Assembly: GCF_944385615.1 (NCBI RefSeq)
Contig: NZ_CALWXV010000021.1
Location: 1 to 40,171, forward strand
Reading direction: 5' to 3'
DNA from: an uncultured Flavonifractor sp.
Lineage (GTDB): Bacteria > Bacillota > Clostridia > Oscillospirales > Oscillospiraceae
DNA: 40,171 nt
The notes under the pieces are model-generated. The model did not search any database, was not told the origin of the DNA, and saw only the letters and a list, made by a program, of their open reading frames with translations. Made by a program: the position numbers and the translations under genes. Position 1 is the stretch's first letter. Every line of letters starts with the position of its first letter. Below are positions 12,385 to 40,055 of this stretch, in pieces.

Positions 12385-13722
12385 TTATTCCGTTTTGATG
12401 GCTTCCAGGGCCGGGATGCGCACCGCCTTGTTGGCCGGGTAGTAGCCGGAGCCCAGGCCGATGAACACTGAGAACACAATGGCAAAGAGCAGCAGCCAGG
12501 GTGGGATCACCGACACCCGGGTGACCTCCTCGCCCCCCAGGATGGCGGGAAGCAAATGTTCCACCGACGGCCCCAGAGAAACCAGATTGATGACCACCGA
12601 GGCCACAAAGCTAATGACACAGCCAATAAGCCCGCCGATGAGCCCGATGGCCCCGGCCTCCGAGAGAAACATAATCCGAATATCCGTGACATAGCAGCCC
12701 AGGGACTTCATCACGCCAATCTCCCGGGTGCGCTCCGAAATGGACATAATCATGGTGTTGGTGATGCCCAGAGCCGCCACAAAGAGGGAGATGGCCCCCA
12801 GTCCCCCCAGCATCAGCTGCTTTTGCCGGGCCTCCTTCTCCATGGGGCGGCGGATGCTCTCCATAGATTCGGTGGCGTACCCCATGGTCTTGAGTTCCCG
12901 CTCCACCGACTCCACCTGGTCGATGCTCTTAACCTTGACCATAACGGAGTCGTACGCCGTGGCCTTTTTCCGCCCTCCCTGGGTCTTTTCCATCAGCTTG
13001 CGCAGGTCGGCCATGTTGAGCATGATTCCTTCGGAAGTCTCGCTGCCCTTGGAGTAGTCCTCCTTGACCGCCCCAACCGGAGTGATGGGCAGGGTGATCT
13101 TTCCGTTTTGGGTTTCGATTTCCATGGTCATAGGCCCCTTCAAGGGGTCAAAGAAAGGGGGCGGCGGGTCGATGGGCTTGCCATTGTCGTCAAAGTTTCC
13201 CGCCCAGCGGTCGATCATGTTGTGGCCCTCGGGCCGCAGGGTGTCTTTGAAGCTGTAGGCCAGGTATTGTCCCACCAGCACCTCGTTATCATGCTTGGGC
13301 AGGGTACCCTCGGTCAGGTGATAGCCCATCTGCTCCAGAGCGCCGGTGTCCACCCCCACCACGGAAGTCCAGTCGGCGATATAGCGCCTGCCTGTACCAG
13401 CCACCAGGGAGATGGATTCTACCTCCAGGCTCCGCTTGGGGGTGAAAGCCGCGATGCCCGGGATGCCCTTGAGCCGCCGCAGCAGGGCGTCGTCCAGCTT
13501 GACCTTGCCCCGGCCCCCCTGGGGGGCGCTGACCGTGATGATGGTCAGGTCCCCCATTTCCGCCAGCGTTTTGTCCTGGGCCTCCTTCATGCCGATGCCC
13601 AGAGATACCATGATAACGATGGAGCAGCAGCCGATGAGTACCCCCAGCACTGTAAGAAAGGTGCGGGATTTCCGGCGCGTCAGATTTTGCAGGCAGACGC
13701 GCAGCAGGTCTTTGCGTTTCAT
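12385..13722 (-). CDS. MacB/FtsX-type ABC transporter permease
   Basis: A 445-residue permease with the MacB architecture: one N-terminal helix (TRRKSRTFLTVLGVLIGCCSIVIMV), a large extracytoplasmic MacB_PCD domain (about residues 50-280), and an FtsX domain with three C-terminal helices ending in PANKAVRIPALEAIKTE, the usual end of this family. Such proteins do not pump through the membrane but transmit ATP-driven motion to outside partners (mechanotransmission). GGAGG stands 7 bases before the ATG and overlaps the end of the repeat-protein gene. It forms one operon with the repeat protein and the ATPase; the two-component genes upstream suggest induction by cell-envelope stress. Confidence 0.9.
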   Translation of the reverse strand: MKRKDLLRVCLQNLTRRKSRTFLTVLGVLIGCCSIVIMVSLGIGMKEAQDKTLAEMGDLTIITVSAPQGGRGKVKLDDALLRRLKGIPGIAAFTPKRSLEVESISLVAGTGRRYIADWTSVVGVDTGALEQMGYHLTEGTLPKHDNEVLVGQYLAYSFKDTLRPEGHNMIDRWAGNFDDNGKPIDPPPPFFDPLKGPMTMEIETQNGKITLPITPVGAVKEDYSKGSETSEGIMLNMADLRKLMEKTQGGRKKATAYDSVMVKVKSIDQVESVERELKTMGYATESMESIRRPMEKEARQKQLMLGGLGAISLFVAALGITNTMIMSISERTREIGVMKSLGCYVTDIRIMFLSEAGAIGLIGGLIGCVISFVASVVINLVSLGPSVEHLLPAILGGEEVTRVSVIPPWLLLFAIVFSVFIGLGSGYYPANKAVRIPALEAIKTE

Positions 13723-13725
13723 GGC

Positions 13726-16200
13726 TCACGCCTCCCCGCCGGGGGCGTTGTCGTCCCAGTTGTCCCAGGTATCGGCCGCCGCCTGACCGCCCCGCTTTTT
13801 CTTCCACACCAGAAATCCTGCGGCGCCGGCAATGACCACACCGCCGCCTGCCAGGCCCACCGGCAGCCAGGGAAAGCCGCTCGCTTCCGCTTCCGGATCA
13901 AAGTCATCGGGGAAGTCCTCCGCCGGGGGCGGGGCGGTAACGTGGAGGGTGACGGGAAATTCCCGGGTCTGGACCTGCTGGTCGGCGTTTTCATAGCTGA
14001 TCTTGAGCACCAGGTTCAGGTCCCCCTCCTCCATGGGGGTGAGGGCAAAGCCAATGTTGCCGTTGGCTCCGGCGGTGATGTTGCCCAGGTACTGGGTGCG
14101 GGCAGGGGTGTCCACCCCCTCCCCCACTACCGTGGCCTCCAGGTTGGCCAAATCATCCTTGCCCTTGTTGACGTAGGTCAGCAGCAGCTCGGTCTCCTCC
14201 CCCATGGACACCGACTCGGGCACTGAGGGGGCGTTGATCTGGAACCGGTCGGGCTGATACACCGGGATAGACAACTTCACGTCGCAGCTGGCCTGGGCCC
14301 GCTTCTCCCCGTCCATGTACTCGTACTTGAAGGAGAGCGCCATACCCTGGGCCCCGCTCTTGCCGGTGGGAATGGCCCGCATGGGCACCTCCTGGGTCTG
14401 GGCAGCCCCAGCGGCCAGTGATTTATAAAAATAGGTGTTGGTACCCGCGTCCATGGTGAAAGTCTCGCCGCCGTCCACCGTCACCACCAGATTTTCGATT
14501 CTAACAGCGCCGGTGTTCTCAAAGGTGAAGCGGAGGGGAAAGGCGCTGCCGGCGGCCACCGAGCCCTCGCCGAAGGCGAAACTGCGCACCACCACGTTGG
14601 GCACTGAGGCGTCGGTTTTGGCGGGCACATTGGCGGAGAGGTTGATTTTGTCGGAAGAAGTGCCCTGGGTCAGGGCTTCGCCGTTGTCGTAGTTGAACTT
14701 CAGCTCGGTGGTGAGGGACTGGCTGGCGGCGGTCAGGTCCTTGGCGGCCTTGATATTCACCGCAATGGAGGCGGTCTGGCCCGGCTCCAGGTCGGGCAGC
14801 AGGAAGGTAGCGGCGGGGTCCAGCAGCGTCAGGGACTCCGAGGCGGACACAGTGACCACCGGTTTGACCAGGGTGGAGGCGCTGGCGTTCTGGAAGATAA
14901 GAGGCACGCTGGCGGTCTCGCCGGGAGAGAGGGCCTTCACATTCTCCCCACGGGACACCAGTACCACCGGCTGGGGTACGCTCTCCTTGGCCAGGGTGGG
15001 TACCACCACCTTATCGGACATGGTGGCCTGGGTGAGCATGCCGCCATTGTCGTAACTGAATTTCAGTTCGGTGCTCAGAGACTGGCTGGTAGCGGTGCTG
15101 CCCTTGGCCACTTTGACCTGCACCTCAATGCGGGCCGTCCGGCCGGGGTCCAGGTTGGGCAGCAGGAAGGTGGCGGCGTCATTGAGCACCACCAGGGATT
15201 CCGAGGGGGTAACGGTAACGGTGGGCTTCACCAGCCGGGTGGAGCCGGTGTTCTGGAATTGAATGGTGACGGTGGCGCTCTCGTCGGGGGCCAGGGGGTG
15301 GTCCAGCGGCGAGCGGGACACCAGCACCACCGGTTGGGGGACACTCTCCCGGCCCAGAGCAGGGATGCTCAGCTTGTCGCTCATGGTGCCCTGCACCACA
15401 GACAGGTTGTTGAAGTAGTTAAACTTCAGATCCACCCCCAAAGACTGGGCTGGGGTGGAGATGGTGGCGGCGGCCTGAAGCACGATTTTCAGGGTGACGC
15501 TCTTTTTCCCGGCGATGTCGGGCAGCGAGAAGGAGGAGGAGCCCCCGGCGATGGTGAGGCCGTCGGAGGGGGTGAGGGTCACCACCGGAGCGGTGAGGCG
15601 GGCGGTGCTCAGATTCTGGAAGGTCACCGTCAGGGGAACCGTCTGCCCCGCCTCGATGGGCTTATCCAGCTCGCTGCGGGATACCAGCACATTGGGAACG
15701 GGGATGGGCTCCGGCGGGGTGGGGACAGGCTCCGGGGTGGGCTGGGGGGCCTCATATACCACAGCCTCGGTGATGGTGAGCTCCAGGGTCTGGTAGCTGT
15801 CGGGCTGACCGGCGGTGCCCACCTGGAGCTTCAGGCTCTGGCCCACTCCTTTGTAGGTCAGGCTGCCCAGCTTGACGGCGTACACCAGGGGAGCGCCCAC
15901 AGGGGAGGTCTTTTCCACAGTCAGAGTACCGCCGGTAAAGCTGTCGTCCAACTTGGTGATGTCCAGGGTCCGGGGGTCGCCGTCGCCGGTGCCGTCGCCG
16001 GTGTCCTTGATGGACACGGTGATATCCACCGTGGTGCCTTTGGTGATGGTATACATGGGGCTTCCGGCACTGTTGGTCACCTGGTAGCCGGTGATGAACA
16101 GGTTGCTCCCCTCGGCGCCCAGGGCGGCGGGCAAAGCGGAGGCCAGCAGGGCCAGCAGCAGGAGCACAGACAGAGCGGTGCGGGAAAGACTATGCTTCAT
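13726..16200 (-). CDS. Secreted, membrane-anchored protein with five CARDB-like repeats
   Basis: The 824-residue product has a signal peptide (about residues 1-28), an N-terminal beta domain, a proline-rich linker (about 150-165) and five tandem repeats of about 120 residues (starting near 168, 288, 409, 531 and 654), each of Ig-like beta type opening with VLVSRS-like residues and a FQN motif. Repeats 1-3 are the most alike. A single helix (about 775-800) followed by KKKRGG anchors it with a short acidic tail inside. It looks like the CARDB/COG1361 surface proteins. AAAGGAG lies 8 bases before the ATG at 16200, overlapping the ATPase gene by 11 bases. Between permease and ATPase it is probably the extracellular partner of the MacB-like transporter; its ligand is unknown. 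Confidence 0.82.
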   Translation of the reverse strand: MKHSLSRTALSVLLLLALLASALPAALGAEGSNLFITGYQVTNSAGSPMYTITKGTTVDITVSIKDTGDGTGDGDPRTLDITKLDDSFTGGTLTVEKTSPVGAPLVYAVKLGSLTYKGVGQSLKLQVGTAGQPDSYQTLELTITEAVVYEAPQPTPEPVPTPPEPIPVPNVLVSRSELDKPIEAGQTVPLTVTFQNLSTARLTAPVVTLTPSDGLTIAGGSSSFSLPDIAGKKSVTLKIVLQAAATISTPAQSLGVDLKFNYFNNLSVVQGTMSDKLSIPALGRESVPQPVVLVSRSPLDHPLAPDESATVTIQFQNTGSTRLVKPTVTVTPSESLVVLNDAATFLLPNLDPGRTARIEVQVKVAKGSTATSQSLSTELKFSYDNGGMLTQATMSDKVVVPTLAKESVPQPVVLVSRGENVKALSPGETASVPLIFQNASASTLVKPVVTVSASESLTLLDPAATFLLPDLEPGQTASIAVNIKAAKDLTAASQSLTTELKFNYDNGEALTQGTSSDKINLSANVPAKTDASVPNVVVRSFAFGEGSVAAGSAFPLRFTFENTGAVRIENLVVTVDGGETFTMDAGTNTYFYKSLAAGAAQTQEVPMRAIPTGKSGAQGMALSFKYEYMDGEKRAQASCDVKLSIPVYQPDRFQINAPSVPESVSMGEETELLLTYVNKGKDDLANLEATVVGEGVDTPARTQYLGNITAGANGNIGFALTPMEEGDLNLVLKISYENADQQVQTREFPVTLHVTAPPPAEDFPDDFDPEAEASGFPWLPVGLAGGGVVIAGAAGFLVWKKKRGGQAAADTWDNWDDNAPGGEA

Positions 16201-16924
16201 GGGGGGATCTCTCCTTTTGATTGATTTCGTTGCGGACGATTTCGCCGTCGATGAGGGTGACGATACGGTGGGCGTAGGCGGCCATCTCAGGGTCGTGGGT
16301 GACCAGGATGATGGTCTGGTGAAAATCCCGGGCAAAGGTACAGATCATGTTCATGATCTCCACCGTGGTTTTGGAGTCCAGGTTGCCGGTGGGCTCGTCG
16401 GCAAATACCACGTCGGGCCGGGCGATGAAGGCCCGGGCAATGCCTACCCGCTGCTGCTGGCCGCCGGACATTTGACGGGGAAAGTGGTCCAGCCGGTGGG
16501 CCAGCCCCACCCGGGTGAGCAGCTTGCGGGCTGCCGCCTCCCGCTGGGCCTTGGGCACCCCCCGAAACATCAGGGGGAGGGCCACGTTTTCGGTGGCGGT
16601 CAGATTGGGCAGCAGATTGTAGGACTGAAACACAAAGCCCAGGTGCCGCTGCCGGAAGGCGGCCAGCTGATTTTCGCTCAGCCGGGAGATGGGTACCCCG
16701 CCGATGCGAACCTCTCCCCGGGTGGGCTTTTCCATCCCCGCCAGTTGGTTGAGCAGGGTACTTTTGCCCGAGCCGGAGGTACCGAAGATACAGCAGATCT
16801 CCCCCCGGGACACATTCAGATTGATGCGCTTGAGGGCCACCACCGTCTCGTCGCCGATGGGATATTCCTTGCGAAGGTCCTTGACTTCGATAATGGGGCG
16901 GCTGCGCGGGTCGGAGCCGTTCAT
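16190..16924 (-). CDS. ABC transporter ATPase, MacB/LolD type
   Basis: A 244-residue ATPase with Walker [11 protein letters not shown]-loop [18 protein letters not shown], signature MSGGQQQRV, Walker [13 protein letters not shown] and H-loop VTHD. The sequence around the Q-loop is that of the MacB/LolD/FtsE group, which pairs with the FtsX-type permease encoded downstream. The ATG at 16924 is 8 bases after AAAGGAGG; the frame continues upstream without another good site. It is the first gene of the three-gene operon. A TATACT on the minus strand about 30 bases before the ribosome-binding site may be its -10; no matching -35 is seen, as expected for an activator-dependent promoter. Confidence 0.93.
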
Positions 16925-17014
16925 GGGCGCTGCCTCCTTTCTGAGGGTGAGTATACCGGAGTAGCCTTCAGTCCGCCTATGCGGTTTGTTAAGATTCATA
17001 AAGGCAGGAGAAAG

Positions 17015-17045
17015 AAAAAACTCCGGACCGAAATCGGTCCGGAGT
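17015..17045 (-). terminator. Terminator of the two-component operon
   Basis: An 11-12 bp perfect stem (17020-17030 with 17035-17045) ends on the minus strand in TTTTTTCTTT. It starts 8 bases after the histidine kinase stop and separates it from the ABC operon. Confidence 0.88.
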
Positions 17046-17053
17046 CTGACAAT

Positions 17054-18643
17054 TCAGTGGGACAAGGTTGGTGGACAGAGGGGCAGGGTAAGCACAAATT
17101 CGGTGCCCTGGCCTGAGGCTGGACGGGGAGAGAGAGAAATGGAGCCGCCGTGTAGCTCCATGATCCGCCGGGTGATGGACAGGCCCAGGCCGCTGCCCTG
17201 GCCGGAACGGGCGTCGCTGCCCACCACGAAGGGCTCGAAAATATCCCTGGCCCGCTGGGGCGGGATGCCCACCCCGTTGTCCGCTACCGATAAAACAGCT
17301 TGATTGTCCTGGGCGGATACCCGGAAGAAAAGCATGGTGCCCAGCCGGTTGTGGCGCAGGGCGTTGGACAGCAGGTTGTCCAGAACCCGGCGGAATTGCA
17401 GGGGGTCCAAGGCGCAGCGGATGGGGTGGTCCGGCAGATCGACCTCCAGACCGAAGCCGGCCAGATCGATTTCATCATACTTTTCCGCCAGATAGGCCCG
17501 CAGAAACTCGCACAGGTCGGCGGGCTGCGTGTGGAGCACAAATTCCGGGTGTTCCACTTTGCTGTACTCGTGGAAGGCGTTGACCAACTCGGTGAGGGCG
17601 GCAGCCTTGCCCTGAATGGCCCGCAGATAGCGTTCCTGCTCCTGGGGCGGTACCTTGCCGTCACAGATGGCGTCGATATACCCGGCAATGACGGTGATGG
17701 GGGTCTTTAAGTCGTGGGAAATATCGGCGATAAGCTTCTGACGCCCCTGATCCAGCCGCCGCCGCTCCGCCTCGCTTTCGGCCAGCCGGTCGGAGAAGCG
17801 GTCAAAGCTCTCCCCGATGCGGCGGATCTCCCTTGTGCCGCCACAGTTCCCCACCCGGACCATACGGCCCTCCGCCTGGGACACCACCGCGTCGTTGAGC
17901 CGCCGCAGGGGCCGCCCGATCCGGCAGCTCAGCCACCAGATAAACAGTCCTGCGCTGAGCAGATAGAGGGGCAGAAAGAGCAGCCAGATTTTCCAGGAAC
18001 TCTGGTAACGCTGGGCATAGTCGGCGTCGCTGAGCTGGACCTCCCGCAGCAGCACGGTCATAGATGCCCCGTCCCCATCAGAAAAGAGCCCCCGTGAGAG
18101 GATGCTGTCGGAGAACCGGCGGCCGGACAGATAGGAAAACTCCTGGGGAGTGTAGGCGGTTTTTTCCTCCTCCGCCCCGCCGAAGATCACCTGATAGTTC
18201 TGGTCCAGCACCAGGGTGTCCACCTCGCCGGTATCGGCGGATTGGCGGAGCACCAGGTAGCGGGGCGCGCCGTCCCTGCCGGTCTGCTCAAAGGTGCGGA
18301 CAATGACGTTGGCGTCCCACAGAGGCACACAGGACAGCTCCCCTTCGGTGCAGGTCGGGTCAAATGCCCCGGCGGAGGCGTAAACCAGAACCCCATCCCC
18401 GTCATAGACCGCGAAAGCGCTGCCTCCGTCTCCGGTGTAGCGGTCCAGCTTGTCAAATTCCCCCGCCGTGAGGGCGGGGTCGGCCATCAGCCCGGCCCAG
18501 TCCGCCGGCTGATAAAGCCGCTCCAGCCACAGATTCCACAGCAGAAAGATCCCCCCGGTAATGGCCAGCAGGGTGAGGGTGAAGAGCAGATAATTGCGCA
18601 CCAGCAGACCGAACAGGCTGCCGGGAACCGGTTTACTTTTCAA
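17054..18643 (-). CDS. Membrane sensor histidine kinase
   Basis: A 529-residue kinase with two membrane helices (about 15-38 and 217-240) around an extracytoplasmic sensor of about 180 residues, a HAMP linker, a HisKA dimerisation domain with SHDLKTPIT (phospho-acceptor His310) and a HATPase_c domain with N box DNLLSNALRHN, G1 DNGVGIP and G2 GSGLGLSI. The sensor family is not recognisable to me. The start is a TTG at 18643 overlapping the response-regulator gene by 11 bases; a GTG at codon 15 is possible, but would shorten the segment before helix 1. It partners the regulator directly upstream and probably controls the ABC operon that follows the terminator. Confidence 0.9.
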   Translation of the reverse strand: MKSKPVPGSLFGLLVRNYLLFTLTLLAITGGIFLLWNLWLERLYQPADWAGLMADPALTAGEFDKLDRYTGDGGSAFAVYDGDGVLVYASAGAFDPTCTEGELSCVPLWDANVIVRTFEQTGRDGAPRYLVLRQSADTGEVDTLVLDQNYQVIFGGAEEEKTAYTPQEFSYLSGRRFSDSILSRGLFSDGDGASMTVLLREVQLSDADYAQRYQSSWKIWLLFLPLYLLSAGLFIWWLSCRIGRPLRRLNDAVVSQAEGRMVRVGNCGGTREIRRIGESFDRFSDRLAESEAERRRLDQGRQKLIADISHDLKTPITVIAGYIDAICDGKVPPQEQERYLRAIQGKAAALTELVNAFHEYSKVEHPEFVLHTQPADLCEFLRAYLAEKYDEIDLAGFGLEVDLPDHPIRCALDPLQFRRVLDNLLSNALRHNRLGTMLFFRVSAQDNQAVLSVADNGVGIPPQRARDIFEPFVVGSDARSGQGSGLGLSITRRIMELHGGSISLSPRPASGQGTEFVLTLPLCPPTLSH

Positions 18644-32704: not shown

Positions 32705-34345
32705 TCAGGCATTGTCACCGAAGAAGAGCTTCATGTCGTCCTCCACGGTACCGATACCGGCGATACCGAAGTTTTCCACCAGCACCTTGGCTACGTTGGG
32801 GCTGAGGAAGGCGGGCAGAGTGGGGCCCAGGTGGATATTCTTCACCCCCAGGTACAGCAGGGCCAGCAGCACAATAACCGCCTTCTGCTCATACCAGGCA
32901 ATGTTGTACACGATGGGCAGGTCGTTGATATCGTCCAGGCCAAAGACCTCCTTCAGCTTGAGGGCAATGACTGCCAGAGAGTAAGAGTCGTTGCACTGGC
33001 CCGCGTCCAGCACACGGGGGATACCGCCGATGTCCCCCAGGTCCAGCTTGTTGTACTTGTACTTGGCGCAGCCGGCGGTGAGGATTACGGTGTCATGGGG
33101 CAAGGCCTTGGCAAACTCGGTGTAATAGTCCCGGCGCTTGGCCCGGCCGTCGCAGCCCGCCATAACCACGAACTTCTTGATGGCCCCGCTCTTGACGGCC
33201 TCCACCACCTGGTCCGCCAGGGCCAGCACCTGGGCGTGGGCAAAGCCGCCTACGATCTCGCCGCTCTCAAGTTCGGTGGGAGGCGCGCACTTCTTGGCGT
33301 GCTCAATGAGGGCGGAGAAGTCCTTCTGCTCCCCGATGCCGCCGGGGATATGCTTGCAGCCGGGGAAGCCCGCCGCGCCGGTGGTGTACAGCCGGTCCTT
33401 GTAGCTGTCCTTGGGGGGCACGATGCAGTTGGTGGTCATGAGGATGGGACCGTGGAAGGCCTCGAACTCCTCCTTCTGCTTCCACCAGGCGTTGCCGTAG
33501 TTGCCCACGAAGTTGGGGTACTTCTTGAAGGCGGGATAGTAGTGGGCGGGCAGCATCTCGGAGTGGGTGTACACATCCACTCCGGTGCCCTGGGTCTGCT
33601 CCAGCAGCATCTCCAGATCCCGCAGGTCGTGGCCGGACACCAGAATACCGGGGTTTTTGCCCACACCGATGGACACCTTGGTAATCTCAGGATTTCCATA
33701 GGCGGTGGTGTTGGCCTTGTCCAGCAGGGCCATACCCTCCACGCCATACTTGCCGGTCTCCAGGGTCAGGGCCACCAGATCGTCCACGCTGAGGCTGTCG
33801 TCCAGGGTAGCTGCCAGGGCCTTTTGCAGGAAGGCGTCCACCTCGCTGTCGTCCTGGAGCAGGGCGTTGGCGTGCTTGGAGTAGGCGGACAGGCCTTTCA
33901 GTCCATAGGTGATGAGCTCCCGCAGGGAGCGGATGTCCTCGTTCTCGGTGGACAGCACGCCCACGGTCTTGGCCTTGGCCTCCCAGTCGCCTTCTCCGTC
34001 CCACAGGGCCGCCTCAGGCAGGCTGTTGGGGTCCTTCACCTGGGCCAGCAGCTCGGCCCGGGTCTGAAGAGTGGCGCAGATGCGCTCCTCAATGGCCTTT
34101 TTGTCAAAATTGGCGTTGGTGATGGTGGTGAACAGGTTGAGGGTGATGAGATGGTTGACCTCCCCCGACACCGGCGTGCCCTGGGCCCGCAGGGCGGTGG
34201 TGATGGCGGACAGGCCCCGGGTCACATAGACCAGCAGGTCCTGCATGGCCGCCACGTCGGGCCCCTTTCCGCAGACCCCTACCTTGGTGCAGCCGGTGCA
34301 GCCGGCGGTCTCCTGGCACTGATAGCAAAACATATTGTATTCCAT
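32705..34345 (-). CDS. hcp: Hybrid cluster protein (Hcp)
   Basis: Hcp is a high-affinity NO reductase (and hydroxylamine reductase in vitro) used against nitrosative stress and involved in protein S-nitrosylation. The 546-residue protein has the N-terminal cluster motif of the clostridial/Desulfovibrio type (Cys7, Cys10, Cys19, Cys25, spacing C-x2-C-x8-C-x5-C, with an extra Cys16), and the hybrid-cluster ligands: GHDLRDLE, the His/Glu region, [11 protein letters not shown] (persulfide cysteine), [10 protein letters not shown], and [11 protein letters not shown]. The ATG at 34345 has GGAGG 7 bases before it. No hcr reductase is adjacent. A Crp/FNR-type dyad stands in front of its -10 box. Confidence 0.95.
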
Positions 34346-34468: not shown

Positions 34469-35374
34469 TCAGAACAGACCGGGTTGTTCCACCAAATAGC
34501 GTTGGATCAGGTCGGTGAACCAGCTTACCGCCGGGTTCTCCGACTGCCTGCGCCACGCCACCCCCACCTCAATGACAGGACTGGTGCCGTCCAGGGGCAG
34601 AAAGGCCAGGTCGGTGTACATGTACTCCCGGATATGGTAGGGCAGGATGGCCAGGGCCTGACCGCACTGTACCGCGAATAGCACATCCTCCATAGCGGGG
34701 TACTCCGCCACGATTCGGGGGGTAAAGCCCATGTCCCGGCAGATTTCCCGGAACTGCTTGTACATATAGCTGCCCCCCTCCCGGGAGAGACAGACAAAGG
34801 GCTCGGTGGCCAATCTGCTGTAGTCAATAGAGGTGTTGTCCAGACAGGAGTGGTCCGGCGGGCACACCAGGCAGTAAAAATCCGCCACCAGCCGGCGGCA
34901 GTGGTACTGGTTCAGTCCCTGCAAGTCGGACAACACGGAAAAGGCCAGGTCAAAGGTCATCTCCTCACAGCCCTTTTGCAGGTCCTCCGCCACCCCCCGG
35001 ATCAAATCAATGCGCACCTGGGGATAGAGGCTGCGGTACTCCCGCATGAGCTGTGGGAGAAAATGCCGGCATGGGCTGTTGAGGTAGCCGATCTTCAATT
35101 CCAGGTTCTCAGTCTGTTCCGCCTGACGCATCCGCTTCTGGGCCCGCTCTTCCAAGTCCAACATCCGCTTGGCGTCCTCCAGAAAGAGCTCTCCCGCTCG
35201 GGTCAGGGAAACACTGCGGGTGGTGCGGAGGAACAGTTTCACCCCCAGTTCCCGCTCCAGGGCGGAGATCTGGTGGGTAATAGCGGGCTGGGTCACATAA
35301 AACGCCCGGGCCGCCTCGGTAAAATTCCGGTGGCGGGCCACCGATAGAAAATAGCGCAGCTGGTCCATATTCAT
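34469..35374 (-). CDS. LysR-family regulator, probable control of the flavonoid genes
   Basis: A 301-residue LysR-type regulator: HTH domain MDQLRYFLSVARHRNFTEAARAFYVTQPAITHQISALERELGVKLF, linker helix rich in Glu/Arg, then an effector domain from about residue 90 (LKIGYLNSPCRHFLPQL), of the CynR/BenM-like group. Start ATG at 35374 (AAAGGAGG about 10 bases upstream); the ATG two codons later is possible. It is transcribed away from the FLR-type gene across a 140-base region containing a perfect dyad that overlaps its own promoter, typical of LysR autoregulation with activation of the divergent operon. A flavonoid or phenolic product is the likely inducer, by inference from the neighbours. Confidence 0.88.
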   Translation of the reverse strand: MNMDQLRYFLSVARHRNFTEAARAFYVTQPAITHQISALERELGVKLFLRTTRSVSLTRAGELFLEDAKRMLDLEERAQKRMRQAEQTENLELKIGYLNSPCRHFLPQLMREYRSLYPQVRIDLIRGVAEDLQKGCEEMTFDLAFSVLSDLQGLNQYHCRRLVADFYCLVCPPDHSCLDNTSIDYSRLATEPFVCLSREGGSYMYKQFREICRDMGFTPRIVAEYPAMEDVLFAVQCGQALAILPYHIREYMYTDLAFLPLDGTSPVIEVGVAWRRQSENPAVSWFTDLIQRYLVEQPGLF

Positions 35375-35401
35375 GGTGGTATCCCCTCCTTTGCTGACTC
35401 T

Positions 35402-35431
35402 ATTATAAATTGATAAACGGATTTTATCAAT
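35402..35431. promoter_or_regulatory. lysR promoter overlapped by a perfect LysR-type dyad
   Basis: On the minus strand TTGATA (35425-35430), 17 bases, TATAAT (35402-35407) is a near-consensus promoter for the lysR gene. ATTGATAAA (35409-35417) and TTTATCAAT (35423-35431) form a perfect 9-bp dyad with a 5-base centre, covering the -35 and spacer. For the divergent gene a TTGCAC at 35458-35463 is a possible -35 without a clear -10, as in activator-dependent promoters; the dyad centre is about 95 bases before that gene's start codon. Confidence 0.65.
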
Positions 35432-35514
35432 GGACGAAAAAAGCTGAATTTCTCTTTTTTGCACCAAGGTGTTACCATATCTACGCAAAAATATTGTGCG
35501 AAGGAGCAATGGAA

Positions 35515-36459
35515 ATGGGTTTTCAAGTCATGGGCGTTACTGCCGGCCGCAAAGACAGCAACTGTGAGATCCTGCTCAAGGAGGCCCTGCTGGCCTGTCA
35601 GGAGATGGGCGCCGAGGTTCGTATGATCAACCTGAAGGATTACGACCTGCTGGACTGCGACGGCTGCACCTCCTGCACCATCGGCATGTCCATGGGCAAG
35701 AATGTGGGCTGCCCCCTGGACAAAAAGGACGACAAGAAGAAGATCATGGACGTGATGCTGGATCAGGACGCGGTCATCTTCTCCGCCCCCACCTACGATC
35801 TGATGCCTTCCTCCCTGTTTCTCAAGTTCATGCACCGCAACCTGGCCTATGAGTCGGCCTTCCTCACCAAGATTGGCGCCATCGCCCCCCGGGACCGGGT
35901 GGGCGGCCTCATCGCGGTAGGCGGCTCCACCCGCTCCTGGCAGTCCATGGCCCTGGAGTGCATGCAGGCCACCACCTTCACCAACAGCTTCAAGATCGTG
36001 GACATGTACATGGCGACCCAGGTGCCCGCCCCCGCCCAGGTACTTCTCTATGAGGAAAAGCTGGCCCGGGCCCGCGAGATGGGCCAGAACATCATGAAGG
36101 CCCTCAACACCCCCGTGGCCGAGCGCAAGTGGCTGGGCGACCCCGACTACGGCTGGTGCCCCAACTGCCACTCCAACGCGCTCTGTCTGGGTGAGCCCCA
36201 GTGGAAGGGCCTCCAGTACCCCATCGAGTGTGTGGTGTGCGGCGCCGGCGGCACCCTGGAGCAGACCGAGGACGGCCGCTGGAAGTTCGTCATCGCTGAA
36301 AACGGCCTGGAGCGGGACCGCACCACCGAGGAGGGCCGGGGCGTCCACTGTGACGAGATCGCCGAGACCCAGGGCGGCTTCTTCATGGACCCCGCCAAGC
36401 GCCAGCTGGTGGCCGAGCGCCTGCCCAAGTATAAAAACATCCAGTTCCCCGGCATCTGA
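35515..36459 (+). CDS. FMN-reductase-fold enzyme, candidate flavone/flavonol reductase (FLR type)
   Basis: A 314-residue protein. Residues 1-205 form a flavodoxin-like NADPH-dependent FMN reductase domain (VMGVTAGRKDSNCEILLKEA phosphate loop; VIFSAPTYDLMPSSLFLKFMHR flavin loop; VGGSTRSWQSM). Cys48, Cys51, Cys54 and Cys66 follow the pattern of iron-sulfur flavoproteins but with longer last spacing. Residues 210-250 are a zinc-ribbon-like module (Cys215/218 and Cys239/242). F. plautii FLR reduces the C2-C3 double bond of flavones and flavonols and founded a new ene-reductase class; I assign this gene to it from fold, genomic partners and presumed species, not from a sequence comparison. ATG 35515 is 8 bases after AAGGAG; ATG 35509 is too near. 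Confidence 0.68.
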   Translation: MGFQVMGVTAGRKDSNCEILLKEALLACQEMGAEVRMINLKDYDLLDCDGCTSCTIGMSMGKNVGCPLDKKDDKKKIMDVMLDQDAVIFSAPTYDLMPSSLFLKFMHRNLAYESAFLTKIGAIAPRDRVGGLIAVGGSTRSWQSMALECMQATTFTNSFKIVDMYMATQVPAPAQVLLYEEKLARAREMGQNIMKALNTPVAERKWLGDPDYGWCPNCHSNALCLGEPQWKGLQYPIECVVCGAGGTLEQTEDGRWKFVIAENGLERDRTTEEGRGVHCDEIAETQGGFFMDPAKRQLVAERLPKYKNIQFPGI

Positions 36460-36507
36460 TCGCATATCTCCGCTCCATTCCTTGTTGCCGGCGGTCTGAC
36501 CGCCTCT

Positions 36508-36545
36508 CTCCCCGGTTTCCGGGAGGAGACCGGGGAGCCATTTTT
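36508..36545 (+). terminator. Attenuator-like terminator after the FLR-type gene
   Basis: A perfect 9-bp stem CTCCCCGGT/ACCGGGGAG (36508-36516 with 36529-36537), then CCATTTTTACC with five T. It stands inside the operon, 20 bases before the next start codon, and would lower expression of the downstream genes relative to the first. A 6-bp hairpin GGCGGT/ACCGCC lies at 36490-36504. Confidence 0.6.
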
Positions 36546-36564
36546 ACCATGGAGGGATCCCCAC

Positions 36565-37071
36565 ATGTTTCGTAAAGATCAGTTTGGAATCGTATTCAAT
36601 ACCATCTTCGCTATCATGTTCGCTATCATCCTTCCCATTTACATCGACAGTGTCAATATGCTCCGCATGACGGGCAGCATCCAAATCATCCCGCTCTTGC
36701 AGACGGTCAGCAAGGACTTTGTCATCGGCTTCGGCGTCAGCTTTACCATTGGTACCTACATTGACCTCAAGGCCATGGGCGATGCCTTTGCCCGTCTCGT
36801 TGGGCTCAAAAATGAGAAGAGCCTGCCCTTCCACCTGGTACGGCTGGCCAGCATCGTCTTTGTGATGGTGGTTCTCATGAGCCTGATTATGATGTTTGTC
36901 TCCGCAGGCTACACCATGCCGGTGGGCGCCTTCTTCATGGGCTGGCTGATGAGCTTCCCCATGACCTATGTGGTGGCCTACGTACTGGCGTTCATCACCT
37001 TTGGTTTCGGCCTGCCCCTCACCATGGCACTGTGTACCAAGCCCCCCAAAAGAATGCCCGCCCATCCCTGA
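36565..37071 (+). CDS. Four-helix membrane protein, DUF2798-like
   Basis: A 168-residue integral membrane protein. Four hydrophobic segments are evident: about residues 8-28 (FNTIFAIMFAIILPIYI), 50-68, 92-113 (ASIVFVMVVLMSLIMMFVS) and 120-155 (as one or two helices, FFMGWLMSFPMTYVVAYVLAF). The pairing of helices and the FNTIFAIMFAIIL start resemble DUF2798 proteins, whose function is unknown. GGAGG lies 9 bases before the ATG. It stands inside the flavonoid gene block, so a role in flavonoid or phenolic passage, sensing or redox partnering at the membrane is possible but not shown. Confidence 0.72.
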   Translation: MFRKDQFGIVFNTIFAIMFAIILPIYIDSVNMLRMTGSIQIIPLLQTVSKDFVIGFGVSFTIGTYIDLKAMGDAFARLVGLKNEKSLPFHLVRLASIVFVMVVLMSLIMMFVSAGYTMPVGAFFMGWLMSFPMTYVVAYVLAFITFGFGLPLTMALCTKPPKRMPAHP

Positions 37072-37090
37072 TCTCCAGAAGCATTCCTGC

Positions 37091-37135
37091 CGCTGGCTGT
37101 TCAAGCATCAGCAGATCCAATTCCCTGGCATTTAG
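37091..37135 (+). pseudogene. Remnant 3' end of a second FLR-type gene
   Basis: Read in frame, 37097-37135 gives LFKHQQIQFPGI and a stop, against LPKYKNIQFPGI and a stop at the end of the intact FLR-type gene (36424-36459). Over the last six codons the only DNA differences are three silent third-base changes, and both end in a stop. The same CGC codon stands just ahead of both. Nothing further upstream aligns. This is best explained as the tail of a duplicated gene otherwise lost, between the membrane-protein gene and the enoate-reductase-like gene. Confidence 0.55.
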
Positions 37136-37154
37136 CGAAAGGAGTCCTGTTCCC

Positions 37155-39146
37155 ATGAAATTTGAGCATCTGTTTTCCCCCATGCAGGTGGGAAAGGTGA
37201 CCTACCGCAACCGCGTCGTCAGTGCCCCCATGGCCTTCGGCCTGATCGTGCAGAACCCCGCTGCCCGTGACTTTACTTACCGTAAGCTGGAGAGCAGCGC
37301 CAAGGGCGGCAACGGCTGCGTTATCGTGGGCGAGACCGACGTCAACTTCACCGACGCCGTCCGTATCCCCGGCTTCCGTCCCTTTGACTTTGCCAAGCCC
37401 GAGGAGGACATGGAGACCTTCAACGCTGTAGGCGAGTATGCCCGCCGCATTAAGCGCCACGGCGCAGTGGCCCTGGCTGAGCTGGTCCACTGCGGCAAGG
37501 AGAAGGTGCCCTTCGGCCCCGGTCAGGAGGCCATCGGCCCCATTGAGACCACCAATCTGGCTGGTGTGAAGGTCCGCCCCATGAACGAGGACGACATGGT
37601 CCGGGTGGCCAACGACTTCGCCGTCTGCGCCACCTATATGCAGAAGGCCGGCTTTGACGGCGTGCTGGTCCACGGCGGCCACGGCTTTATCTTCACCCAG
37701 TTCCTCTCCCCCTTGATGAACACCCGTACCGACAACTACGGCGGTTCTCTGGAGAACCGTGCCCGGTTCCCCCTGATGATCCTGAAGGCCATCCGTGAGG
37801 CGGTGGGCCCCGACTTCCTGGTGGAGCTGCGCATTGACGGCACCGACCACCAGCCCGGCGGCATCACCCCCGAGGAGACCGGCGCGTTCATCGCCATGGC
37901 CGAGCCCTACATCACCTCCGTCCATGTGACCTGCGGCATCTATGAGGAGTCCGTCAAGTCCGGCACCGAGAGCTCCATGTTCCACGCCCACGGCCTGAAC
38001 ATCGACAACGCCGCCATCATCAAGAAGTACACCAAGCTGCCCGTGGGCGCTGTGGGCGGCATCAACTCCCCCGAGATGTGCGACCAGGCCATCGCTGAGG
38101 GCAAGATCGACTTTGCCATTCTGGGCCGTCAGATGCTGGCCGACCCCGAGTTTGCCAACAAGGCCCGTGAGGGCAAGGAGGATCAGATCCGCCGCTGCCT
38201 GCGCTGCTACAAGTGCTTCCCCGGCTCCCCCGAGGAGGGCTATGACGACCTGCCCTTCACCAGCGAGGAGCTGGCCCTCTACGTGGGCCACTGCACCATC
38301 AACCCCCTGGCTCACCTGCCCTTCGATCCCGATACCCTGGCCCCCGCCTCCAAGCAGGAGACCGTCCTTATCGTAGGCGGCGGCGCCGCCGGTCTCCAGG
38401 CCGCCATTACCGCCTGCGACCGGGGCCAGAAGGTGATCCTGGCCGAGCAGGAGGGCTATCTGGGCGGCCTGCTGCGGTTCACCGACGTGGACACCGACAA
38501 GCCCGACCTGATGAACTTCAAGAATCTGCTGGTCCGGGAAGTGGAGCGCCGGGACATCGACGTGCGGCTCAACACCACCGTTACCCCGGAGAACATCGGC
38601 TCCTTTGGCGCTGACGGCGTCATCTTTGCCACCGGCTCCCTGCCCTCCTGCCCCCCGGTGCCCGGCATCGAGCATGCCCACAAGGCCATGGATATGTACG
38701 ACGGCAAGGTCAAGCCCGGCCACAAGATCGTCATGGTGGGCGGCGGCCTGGTGGGCTGTGAGGCCGGCCTGTTCCTCCAGAAGACCGGCCATGAGGTCAC
38801 CGTGGTGGAGATGCTGGACCGGCTGGCCAACGAGTCCTTCGGCATGTACCGTGAGGCCCTGATCTGGGAGATGGAGAAGTGCCACATGGGCATGATGCCC
38901 AAGACCCGCTGCCTGGAGATCACCCCCACCAGCGTGAAGGTGGAGAATGCCGACGGGGTCCAGACCCTGGAGGCCGACACCGTTCTCTTCGCCCTGGGCA
39001 TGAAGAGCGTGGACATCTCCGCCCTGAAGGAGGCCGCCGAAGCCAAGGGCCTCAAGACCTGGGTCATCGGCGACGCCATCCAGCCCGGCAAGGTGGACCA
39101 GGCCACCCGCAGCGCCTATCTGGCCGGTATTGAGGTGGGCAAGTAA
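37155..39146 (+). CDS. OYE/enoate-reductase-like flavoprotein, candidate flavanone-cleaving reductase
   Basis: A 663-residue protein of the 2,4-dienoyl-CoA reductase/BaiCD architecture: FMN-binding TIM barrel (1-345; APMAFGLI, HCGKEK near 118, HGGHGFIFTQFLSP near 173, GRQMLADP near 325), a [4Fe-4S] site (Cys348, Cys351, Cys354, Cys380), then FAD/NAD(P)H domains (VLIVGGGAAGLQAA near 404, VMVGGGLVGCEAGLF, final VIGDAIQPGKVDQATRSAYLAG). The barrel tyrosine that serves as proton donor in dienoyl-CoA reductase is Phe178 here, and the cluster motif is wider than usual. Eubacterium ramulus Fcr, which opens flavanones and flavanonols, is of this family; with FLR-type and phloretin-hydrolase neighbours the same role is likely. 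Start 37155 is 10 bases after AAAGGAG. Confidence 0.8.
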   Translation: MKFEHLFSPMQVGKVTYRNRVVSAPMAFGLIVQNPAARDFTYRKLESSAKGGNGCVIVGETDVNFTDAVRIPGFRPFDFAKPEEDMETFNAVGEYARRIKRHGAVALAELVHCGKEKVPFGPGQEAIGPIETTNLAGVKVRPMNEDDMVRVANDFAVCATYMQKAGFDGVLVHGGHGFIFTQFLSPLMNTRTDNYGGSLENRARFPLMILKAIREAVGPDFLVELRIDGTDHQPGGITPEETGAFIAMAEPYITSVHVTCGIYEESVKSGTESSMFHAHGLNIDNAAIIKKYTKLPVGAVGGINSPEMCDQAIAEGKIDFAILGRQMLADPEFANKAREGKEDQIRRCLRCYKCFPGSPEEGYDDLPFTSEELALYVGHCTINPLAHLPFDPDTLAPASKQETVLIVGGGAAGLQAAITACDRGQKVILAEQEGYLGGLLRFTDVDTDKPDLMNFKNLLVREVERRDIDVRLNTTVTPENIGSFGADGVIFATGSLPSCPPVPGIEHAHKAMDMYDGKVKPGHKIVMVGGGLVGCEAGLFLQKTGHEVTVVEMLDRLANESFGMYREALIWEMEKCHMGMMPKTRCLEITPTSVKVENADGVQTLEADTVLFALGMKSVDISALKEAAEAKGLKTWVIGDAIQPGKVDQATRSAYLAGIEVGK

Positions 39147-39168
39147 GTCCCAGCCCCCCAAAAATCTT

Positions 39169-39208
39169 ACTTTTTCCCTTGAAAGCCTTGGCTTTCAAGG
39201 GAAAAAGT
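39169..39208 (+). terminator. 19-bp perfect hairpin before the hydrolase gene
   Basis: Arms 39169-39187 and 39190-39208 are perfectly complementary (the innermost pairs open to form the loop). It is followed by TGTTATCTTAGTATTAT rather than a pure T-run, and TATTAT (39219-39224) could be a -10. It may reduce read-through, protect the upstream mRNA end, or mark a separate transcript for the hydrolase. Confidence 0.55.
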
Positions 39209-39251
39209 GTTATCTTAGTATTATATGACAATCAGAAAGGAAGGAATCACC

Positions 39252-40055
39252 ATGCCTGAACGCGCGCCGCTGACCGCTGAAGAGCGTGCCCTGCCCTACG
39301 CCAAGTTCTACGACCTGCCCATCACCCCCATTCCCGAGGACAAGCTGGCGGTACTGGCCGGCGGTCCTATCGACCCCGCCCTGGCTCTGAAGATCGAGGA
39401 CCGGAACGACCTGTTCCTCCCCGGCGATCTGCCCTGTGAAATTGGCTACTGCGTCATGGAAAACGGCGCGGGCTTTTTGGCTAACCGCACCTTCATGCCC
39501 GGGGTCACCCCCGAGATGTTTGACTGGTGGTTTGCCTGGCACAGCCTGGAGGACCTGCGCTACCGGATCTGGGACCCCGAAGACCACTTCTACGCCCGGC
39601 AGCAGAACCGGGAAAAGACCCTGGACCAGTCCCTCCCCATGCGGGAGCGCACCTGGGGCACCCAGCACGTGGTGCTGGAGGACATCGGCGGCGGCCCCGA
39701 TCCCCTGATCCTCAACTTCCGCTACCCCCACGAGATGGGCTATGACGAGTCCAAGGTGGGCACCGAGGCCTGCGCCACCATGATGTGCGCCAACGGCCAC
39801 GGCCCTGTTCCCGGTGAGGGTGTGGCCGCTATCATGACCCACTTTGTCCGCGAGGTGGAGGGCGGCATCGTGCTCCGCTCCCGGTTTTGGATCGGCTACG
39901 GCCTGGTGGACGGCCAGCTGGTGAAGCTGGTGCCCGACGGAGTGTCTGTCCCCCTGGAGATCGTCCAGGGCCTGTTTGCCCACAACCTGAAGGAGTTCGG
40001 CCACCTGGCCGCCATCCTGCCCCAGGTTTACGCCGAGAACAAGGATAACTGGTAA
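39252..40055 (+). CDS. phy: Phloretin hydrolase / PhlG-family C-C hydrolase
   Basis: A 267-residue member of the DAPG-hydrolase (PhlG) family, zinc enzymes that cleave the carbon-carbon bond next to a phloroglucinol ring. Phloretin hydrolase of Eubacterium ramulus splits phloretin to phloroglucinol and 3-(4-hydroxyphenyl)propionate. The PhlG zinc ligands (His129, Glu160, His270, Glu274) correspond in spacing to His112, Glu143, His244 and Glu248 here. Other marks: FDWWFAWHSLEDLRYRIWDPEDHF, HFVREVEGGIVLRSRFWIGYG and HNLKEFGHLAAILP. The ATG at 39252 has AAGGA 6 bases upstream; an earlier ATG at 39225 lacks a site. Last gene of the flavonoid block in the window, 106 bases after the enoate-reductase-like gene. 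Confidence 0.85.
   Translation: MPERAPLTAEERALPYAKFYDLPITPIPEDKLAVLAGGPIDPALALKIEDRNDLFLPGDLPCEIGYCVMENGAGFLANRTFMPGVTPEMFDWWFAWHSLEDLRYRIWDPEDHFYARQQNREKTLDQSLPMRERTWGTQHVVLEDIGGGPDPLILNFRYPHEMGYDESKVGTEACATMMCANGHGPVPGEGVAAIMTHFVREVEGGIVLRSRFWIGYGLVDGQLVKLVPDGVSVPLEIVQGLFAHNLKEFGHLAAILPQVYAENKDNW

Follow-up and report, generated by a model that had tools for sequence, protein, structure and literature searches.

Which process is served by the five genes at positions 34469 to 40055 of a contig from an uncultured Flavonifractor sp., where a LysR regulator is followed by a divergent gene of FMN-reductase type, a small membrane protein, an old yellow enzyme (OYE)/enoate reductase and a PhlG/phloretin hydrolase? 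The window, meaning the whole stretch of DNA that was analyzed, is the entire contig C21 of 40,171 nucleotides; the contig ends at 40171, 116 bp 3' of the hydrolase gene, so sequence farther to the right is unreadable in this genome (87 contigs, 2.69 Mb, 89.6% complete). We consider it likely that these genes form an operon under LysR control that serves the anaerobic breakdown of flavonoids, a reading in which activities, substrates and induction are inferred from directly observed gene content, clade membership, a conserved operator, conserved gene order and the presence of other pathway genes. Relatives were sought in 199 genomes; Flavonifractor is represented by 20 genomes, counting the window's. 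Genes in these relatives were called with a codon-scored caller; the longest frames are often apparently antisense in high-GC DNA. The genes of the block and the putative operator are as follows.

34469 to 35374, minus strand: LysR-family regulator, 301 amino acids (HTH_1 PF00126, E=1.2e-24; LysR_substrate PF03466, E=2.9e-38)
35409 to 35431, no strand assigned: putative LysR operator ATTGATAA-N7-TTATCAAT, a perfect palindrome that overlaps the -35/-10 elements predicted for lysR
35509 (or 35515) to 36459, plus strand: FLR-II, FMN-dependent ene-reductase type, 316 amino acids (FMN_red PF03358, E=1.2e-10)
36565 to 37071, plus strand: small membrane protein, 168 amino acids, four predicted helices (no Pfam match up to E=1)
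37155 to 39146, plus strand: OYE/enoate-reductase-type enzyme, 663 amino acids (Oxidored_FMN PF00724, E=2e-52; Pyr_redox_2 PF07992, E=6e-26)
39252 to 40055, plus strand: phloretin-hydrolase-type C-C hydrolase, 267 amino acids (PF18089, E=1.7e-79)

A preliminary description of this DNA had proposed a flavonoid-catabolic block with three enzyme families whose gene order follows the order of steps. All five genes are present as described there, with domains that agree; domains and PDB matches support both the type of block and the three families, and the genes are indeed arranged in the order of the proposed steps. In the proposed mechanism, the LysR protein would bind the palindrome between the divergent genes and induce the operon in response to a flavonoid or a product. 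FLR-II, with flavonols or flavones as candidate substrates, would reduce the C2-C3 double bond; the OYE would open the C-ring of a flavanone or flavanonol to give a dihydrochalcone, with electrons passing from NADH via FAD, a 4Fe-4S cluster and FMN; and the PhlG-type hydrolase would split this dihydrochalcone, releasing phloroglucinol and a phenylpropionic acid. Phloroglucinol could then be degraded by the products of a PGR-TfD-DPGC-TAL cluster on contig C24 of the same genome.

The only PDB sequence match of the first enzyme at E<=0.01 is the flavone reductase (FLR) of F. plautii (entries 7d38-7d3b; PMC7862272), with E=1.2e-27. The window protein has the FMN_red domain, C-terminal extension and length of about 310 amino acids of the FLR superfamily. 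Its alignment to 7d38 spans query residues 6-291 at 29% identity, and although 7d38 is also the top Foldseek match of its predicted structure (pLDDT 75.3; E 2.4e-15), the TM is 0.49-0.53 and the rmsd 18.2. The preliminary description had linked 35515-36459 to the F. plautii FLR, and an assignment to that very enzyme does not hold. The true FLR orthologue of this genome lies instead on contig C8, where it immediately follows a chalcone isomerase gene (PDB 3zph/4d06, about 4e-91), and is 60% identical to 7d38 (phmmer 4.7e-121); the protein at the chalcone isomerase locus of F. plautii ATCC 29863 is identical to the printed 7d38 sequence. With 29% identity against 60% for the C8 paralogue next to chalcone isomerase, orthology of the window gene to the F. 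plautii FLR is ruled out.

A maximum-likelihood tree of 29 proteins with a midpoint root divides FLR-I, the clade of the F. plautii enzyme, from FLR-II (100/100) and recovers FLR-II proper (99/95), with a warning from the tool about two long branches that lie outside FLR-II proper. The window protein groups with Clostridium, E. ramulus and Proteocatella proteins, and is 66% identical to that of C. hydrogenum and 68% to that of Clostridium sp. UBA10317. Judged by sequence, it belongs to a second, little-studied FLR clade of C. ljungdahlii type, the link to which runs through published identities: the C. ljungdahlii FLR is 29.69% identical to that of F. plautii (PMC7862272), and the C. butyricum FLR is 70% identical to the former and 28% to the latter (PMC11868195). 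Deletion showed that the C. ljungdahlii enzyme is required for use of apigenin, quercetin and diosmetin (PMC7862272). The FLR residues G146, S147, W149, H271 and I275 are retained in FLR-II; S147, W149, H271 and I275, which belong to the flavone/FMN pocket, are shared by each of the 17 homologues that were aligned to 7d38. The operon thereby separates two reductase clades that have both been named FLR.

The second enzyme has an FMN barrel, a 4Fe-4S site and an FAD/NAD(P) domain with two GxGxxG motifs, the architecture of Fcr and enoate reductases, and all 20 aligned homologues share cysteines 348, 351, 354 and 380. No second full-length homologue was found in the window's genome, where two other matches (31-33%) are of partial length. 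E. ramulus Fcr (AGS82961) is likewise an NADH-dependent enzyme of OYE/enoate-reductase type (PMC11868195). Identity to the window OYE is 93% for F. plautii contig C110, and the OYEs of E. ramulus strain 21 are 76% (G199:C36), 40% (G199:C194), 35% and 32% identical to it. Several E. ramulus genomes are reported to carry two fcr genes, one closer to the F. plautii gene (PMC8398226), and this wording suggests that the characterized Fcr may be the 40% rather than the 76% protein. The sequence makes the window OYE a candidate flavanone- or flavanonol-cleaving reductase.

The preliminary description's placing of 39252-40055 in the phloretin hydrolase family is upheld: its best PDB match is phloretin hydrolase (5xe5, 6.8e-33); the only other match at E<=0.01 is PhlG (3hwp, 5.2e-30). 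The protein has the PF18089 domain and conserved metal-site histidines and glutamates, with H97, H112, H139, E143, H197, H244 and E248 invariant in 15 of 15 aligned proteins. In the alignment, the zinc ligands of PhlG (H129, E160, H270 and E274) correspond to H112 and E143, as mapped, and to H244 and E248, as judged by eye. This hydrolase gene is the sole copy found in the window's genome. A copy 79-86% identical stands at a different type of locus in F. plautii (G013) and in G002, G004, G017 and G018, followed by a membrane protein of the same family as that of the window, and a similar pair, with a 77% hydrolase, is on a short contig of G010.

The region between the divergent genes bears out the expectation of a LysR regulator with a clear operator: the palindrome is perfect and conserved across the genus. 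At up to two mismatches it occurred 0 times in 100 shuffles. Its core, ATTGAT-N11-ATCAAT, occurs without mismatch at 7 of the 9 genus loci and with a single mismatch at the remaining 2, but is kept only partly in E. ramulus and Clostridium sp. E02; among 283 loci it was found in 25, all of which are by origin overlapping copies of FLR-II loci. The window thus shows the two characteristics of a LysR-type regulator with its own operator, a divergent gene and a palindrome with a T-N11-A core in the shared promoter. The lysR promoter predicted at 35430-35402 on the minus strand is weak evidence by itself, because the scan found 1 site where 1.5 were expected. The FLR-I locus has a different LysR (29%) and no such palindrome. 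A conserved operator makes simple induction tests possible.

FLR-II is present at 92-100% identity in 9 of the 20 genus genomes, including the window's, each time with a divergent LysR gene and an OYE gene, and the hydrolase gene comes next in 8 of these 9 operons. In one of the genomes (G009), the operon adjoins genes for chalcone isomerase, FLR-I, an LVIVD-repeat protein and the membrane protein. The divergent LysR arrangement extends to E. ramulus strain 21 (L237), with FLR-II at 87%, OYE at 76% and no hydrolase on that contig piece, and to Clostridium sp. E02 (L147), where FLR-II (84%) and OYE (73%) are accompanied by a DUF1097 protein and the hydrolase.

Other steps of the pathway are represented elsewhere in the genome. 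As the preliminary description had noted, chalcone isomerase is absent from the window, and a genome-wide search finds one, on C8. Contig C24 encodes a cupin (by eye), PGR (83%), TfD (78%), DPGC (79%), a BKACE protein (TAL) and a transporter of the MFS family, the identities being to homologues in relatives and not to experimentally tested proteins. This is the phloroglucinol cluster that was reported from C. scatologenes and whose occurrence in F. plautii has been pointed out (PMC10470551). Together with the chalcone isomerase and FLR-I on C8, the operon and C24 leave no step between flavone and short acids lacking a candidate. Because no further full-length copies of the operon's OYE and hydrolase were found in the genome, these two probably also serve the products of the C8 chalcone isomerase and FLR-I. 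Opening of the flavonoid C-ring is known from few gut bacteria, F. plautii and E. ramulus among them (PMC11868195). The gut Flavonifractor studied here very likely breaks down dietary plant flavonoids with a compact, probably switchable gene set.

The block is very probably a genuine operon for flavonoid degradation, and ordinary in kind, given that an FLR-Fcr-Phy cluster was published for C. butyricum in 2025 and a 2021 paper had already mentioned a second flr in F. plautii. The C. butyricum cluster has the same three kinds of enzyme in the same order, and its FLR is an FLR-II (PMC11868195). We compared it through a stand-in of unproved equivalence, locus L187 of Clostridium sp. UBA10317, which was chosen by its GC content of 28% and its gene order. 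Unlike the window, L187 has an OYE of another branch (31% to the window OYE), a LysR gene that separates FLR from OYE, and a DUF1097-like protein ahead of the hydrolase, and no membrane protein of the window's type was seen there. The L187 hydrolase is 42% identical to that of E. ramulus strain 21 (L149), whereas 57% was published for the C. butyricum and E. ramulus DSM 16296 hydrolases (PMC11868195); the L149 hydrolase is therefore probably a different protein from the published E. ramulus one, or else the stand-in was wrongly chosen.

The chalcone isomerase-FLR locus of F. plautii (A4U99_05915/05920; PMC7862272) resembles the window in its divergent LysR gene, FMN ene-reductase and membrane protein (71% to the window's), but it has FLR-I, chalcone isomerase and an LVIVD-repeat protein, and neither OYE nor hydrolase was recognized in it. 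The published fcr and second flr of F. plautii (WP_154024723; PMC8398226) presumably correspond, by description, to G013 contig C110, which carries FLR-II (92%), OYE (93%) and a divergent LysR gene, but lacks the membrane-gene insertion described below and has no hydrolase in the 294 bp to the contig end. In the parts of the literature that we consulted, neither the operator nor the membrane-protein family nor the alternative redox partners discussed below were described, although such descriptions may exist.

The membrane protein gene is set apart from the rest of the operon. The gap between FLR-II and OYE is 695 bp here versus 18-32 bp in 8 relatives, and the gene has a GC content of 53% versus 63-65% in the flanking enzyme genes. 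Three further features lie in the intergenic regions.

36508 to 36537, plus strand: GC-rich hairpin with a T-rich tail, terminator- or attenuator-like, between FLR-II and the membrane protein gene (9 such sites in the region versus 4.5 expected by shuffling)
37115 to 37135, plus strand: remnant of an FLR-II 3' end (..IQFPGI-stop) before the OYE gene, seen by comparison with six relatives
39168 to 39209, plus strand: hairpin of ~16-17 bp between the OYE and hydrolase genes, found in 7 of 8 genus operons with paired base changes

On this sequence comparison, the FLR-II remnant is the apparent scar of an insertion and the membrane gene a late arrival in the window's operon; original membership in the operon is ruled out by its absence from that place in 8 of the 9 genus operons. 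The protein is 72% identical to one encoded behind FLR-I on C8 of the same genome, and its AlphaFold model, which is of poor quality (pLDDT 60.6), consists of four helices. A search with the C8 protein finds 16 places in 11 of the 199 genomes, 13 of which, counted by coordinates (the LVIVD neighbor in G010 being recognized by eye), are in the window operon, at loci with chalcone isomerase/FLR-I or LVIVD genes, or next after a hydrolase gene. Two others, in G098 and G064, are at most ~3.2 kb from GH78 alpha-L-rhamnosidase genes and near an MFS transporter gene, and the remaining place is in G121 (E=8e-4). Rhamnosidases can remove rhamnose from flavonoid rhamnosides. With most places beside flavonoid genes and two near rhamnosidases, the family looks flavonoid-linked, and it may have a role in transport. 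A GC-rich inverted sequence also precedes the membrane gene in two chalcone isomerase loci (by eye). The hairpin before the hydrolase gene, which is missing in G014, may set hydrolase expression.

Several observations weigh against a flavonoid operon of the proposed kind. A single transcript is made uncertain by the hairpins 3' of FLR-II and before the hydrolase gene. Membership in the OYE family is weak evidence by itself, because relatives occur in 184 of the 199 genomes, and OYEs 53-62% identical to that of the window occur in G072, G081, G091, G103 and G106 without FLR-II in the stretches examined. F. plautii, as noted, has no hydrolase gene after its OYE gene on what is left of the contig. 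The window FLR-II departs from FLR at several FMN contacts and at the G106 position (M10 is R, K92 is L, D103 is H, and G106 falls on a gap). Finally, the second F. plautii flr, ~60% identical to the C. ljungdahlii gene, was reported in a 2021 survey to show no reduction of apigenin (PMC8398226). By description, this gene is presumed to be the 92% orthologue on C110. The literature on FLR-II activity is thus in conflict, in that the gene is needed in C. ljungdahlii whereas the F. plautii copy was inactive on apigenin, and the operon makes it possible to test clearly what the second flr of F. plautii does.

The neighbors of FLR-II genes bear on its source of electrons. We examined all of the best 80 of 299 hydrolase relatives in named genomes, and FLR-II occurs in 17 of these 80 loci: 10 have an OYE gene (7 of them in the window's genus), 6 have a module of NuoF/NuoG-like proteins and an FAD_binding_2 subunit, 1, in which FLR is at the locus edge, has neither, and none has both. 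An OYE or Nuo/FAD module is present in 7 of the 63 hydrolase loci without FLR-II (Fisher p 1.4e-10, with kinship ignored). Of nine further distinct FLR-II loci, 2 have an OYE gene, 3 the Nuo/FAD module and 4 (L220, L221, L222, L291) neither; L220 and L222 are at contig edges, and L222 has just a 29% relative of FAD_binding_2. L293 (on the contig of L141), L294 (a repeat of L221) and L227 (a better match to FLR-I) were left out of the nine. The association, calculated without regard to kinship, is strong among hydrolase loci and weaker outside them. Direct use of NAD(P)H is not possible for FLR, whose discoverers left the electron chain open (PMC7862272). The Nuo-like/FAD_binding_2 module is a candidate electron chain for flavone reductase, and the operon in this way points to candidates for the electron donor.

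One alternative keeps the type of pathway and changes the substrate: FLR-II might be inactive on common flavones and reduce only a flavonol, or an aurone, chalcone or isoflavone, so that the operon is a parallel route with its own substrate. This would accommodate the coexistence of two FLR clades in one genome, the reported inactivity on apigenin (PMC8398226), the altered FMN contacts and G106 region, and an operon with a LysR and operator of its own, distinct from those of the FLR-I locus. Against it stands the C. ljungdahlii enzyme, which published identities place in the same clade and which is needed for the use of apigenin, quercetin and diosmetin; H271, I275 and W149, shown by mutation to be important in FLR (PMC7862272), are unchanged in FLR-II. 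We regard this alternative as possible, with appreciably less than even chances. Another proposal is that the OYE donates electrons to FLR-II, instead of or besides opening the ring, and that NuoF/NuoG-like proteins with FAD_binding_2 replace it elsewhere. The inability of FLR to use NAD(P)H and the 16 of 17 FLR-II hydrolase loci with exactly one of the two modules speak for it, but the four additional FLR-II loci with neither module (two at contig edges), the OYE relatives in five genomes without FLR-II, and E. ramulus Fcr, an OYE-type enzyme that opens rings unaided (PMC11868195, PMC8398226), make it unlikely.

A bolder combination of these ideas holds that FLR-II works only with a dedicated redox partner encoded beside it, which donates electrons and opens the C-ring as a coupled unit. 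In Flavonifractor, E. ramulus and some clostridia the partner would be an NADH-dependent OYE; in Proteocatella, Alkalibaculum, C. hydrogenum, Butyricicoccus and Mediterraneibacter it would be a NuoF/NuoG-like Fe-S protein with an FAD_binding_2 subunit. The membrane family would be a flavonoid-specific uptake or export component common to flavonoid loci of the genus. We think this combination unlikely. The least plausible idea is that the hydrolase acts on acylphloroglucinols of the 2,4-diacetylphloroglucinol (DAPG) type and that the operon is a detoxification unit. Although the Pfam family is named for DAPG hydrolase and PhlG (3hwp) ranks only just below the top PDB match, that top match is phloretin hydrolase, the neighboring genes encode flavonoid-type reductases, and a PGR gene of phloroglucinol breakdown is present in 10 of the 80 related loci. 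The PhlG equivalog model gives 110 bits versus a cutoff of 600, which rules out DAPG detoxification as the principal explanation, and we hold this idea to be very improbable. The flavonoid-breakdown operon set out at the start is the reading that we favor.

Some observations concern related genes. NuoG/GltD-like and NuoF-like Fe-S proteins with an FAD_binding_2 subunit adjoin FLR-II in L131, L132, L141, L146, L164, L181, L219, L223 and L292. In the window's own genome, contig C40 (G000:C40; L096:10251-11927 and 12943-17810) encodes a pair of 711 and 909 amino acids that resembles the Nuo/FAD module (by eye). The pair is near a distant FLR-like open reading frame that lies in frame behind an AraC-like part, and the next open reading frame resembles an oxidoreductase/sugar transporter fusion (by eye); an assembly artefact or a deletion may account for this arrangement.

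An AprA-like flavoprotein is encoded in 17 of the 80 hydrolase loci, never alongside FLR-II. A phloretin-hydrolase domain is also found fused behind a fumarate-reductase/AprA-like flavoprotein, possibly an alternative ring-opening reductase, as at L111:13612-16236 (G030), the one fusion scanned with Pfam. Counted by open-frame length (816-928 amino acids), such fusions occur at 11 places in 8 genomes (G030, G091, G058, G101, G075, G081, G099 and G078). A ferredoxin gene precedes the scanned fusion, and E. ramulus L149 has all three parts as separate genes.

The LVIVD-repeat protein is kept in chalcone isomerase/FLR-I loci (L095:11694-13064 and L212:3860-5245). Behind the LysR gene, at 32705-34345 on the minus strand of the window, is a gene for a hybrid-cluster protein (hydroxylamine reductase model, 857 bits), a 46% relative of which adjoins FLR-I in E. 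ramulus (L209).

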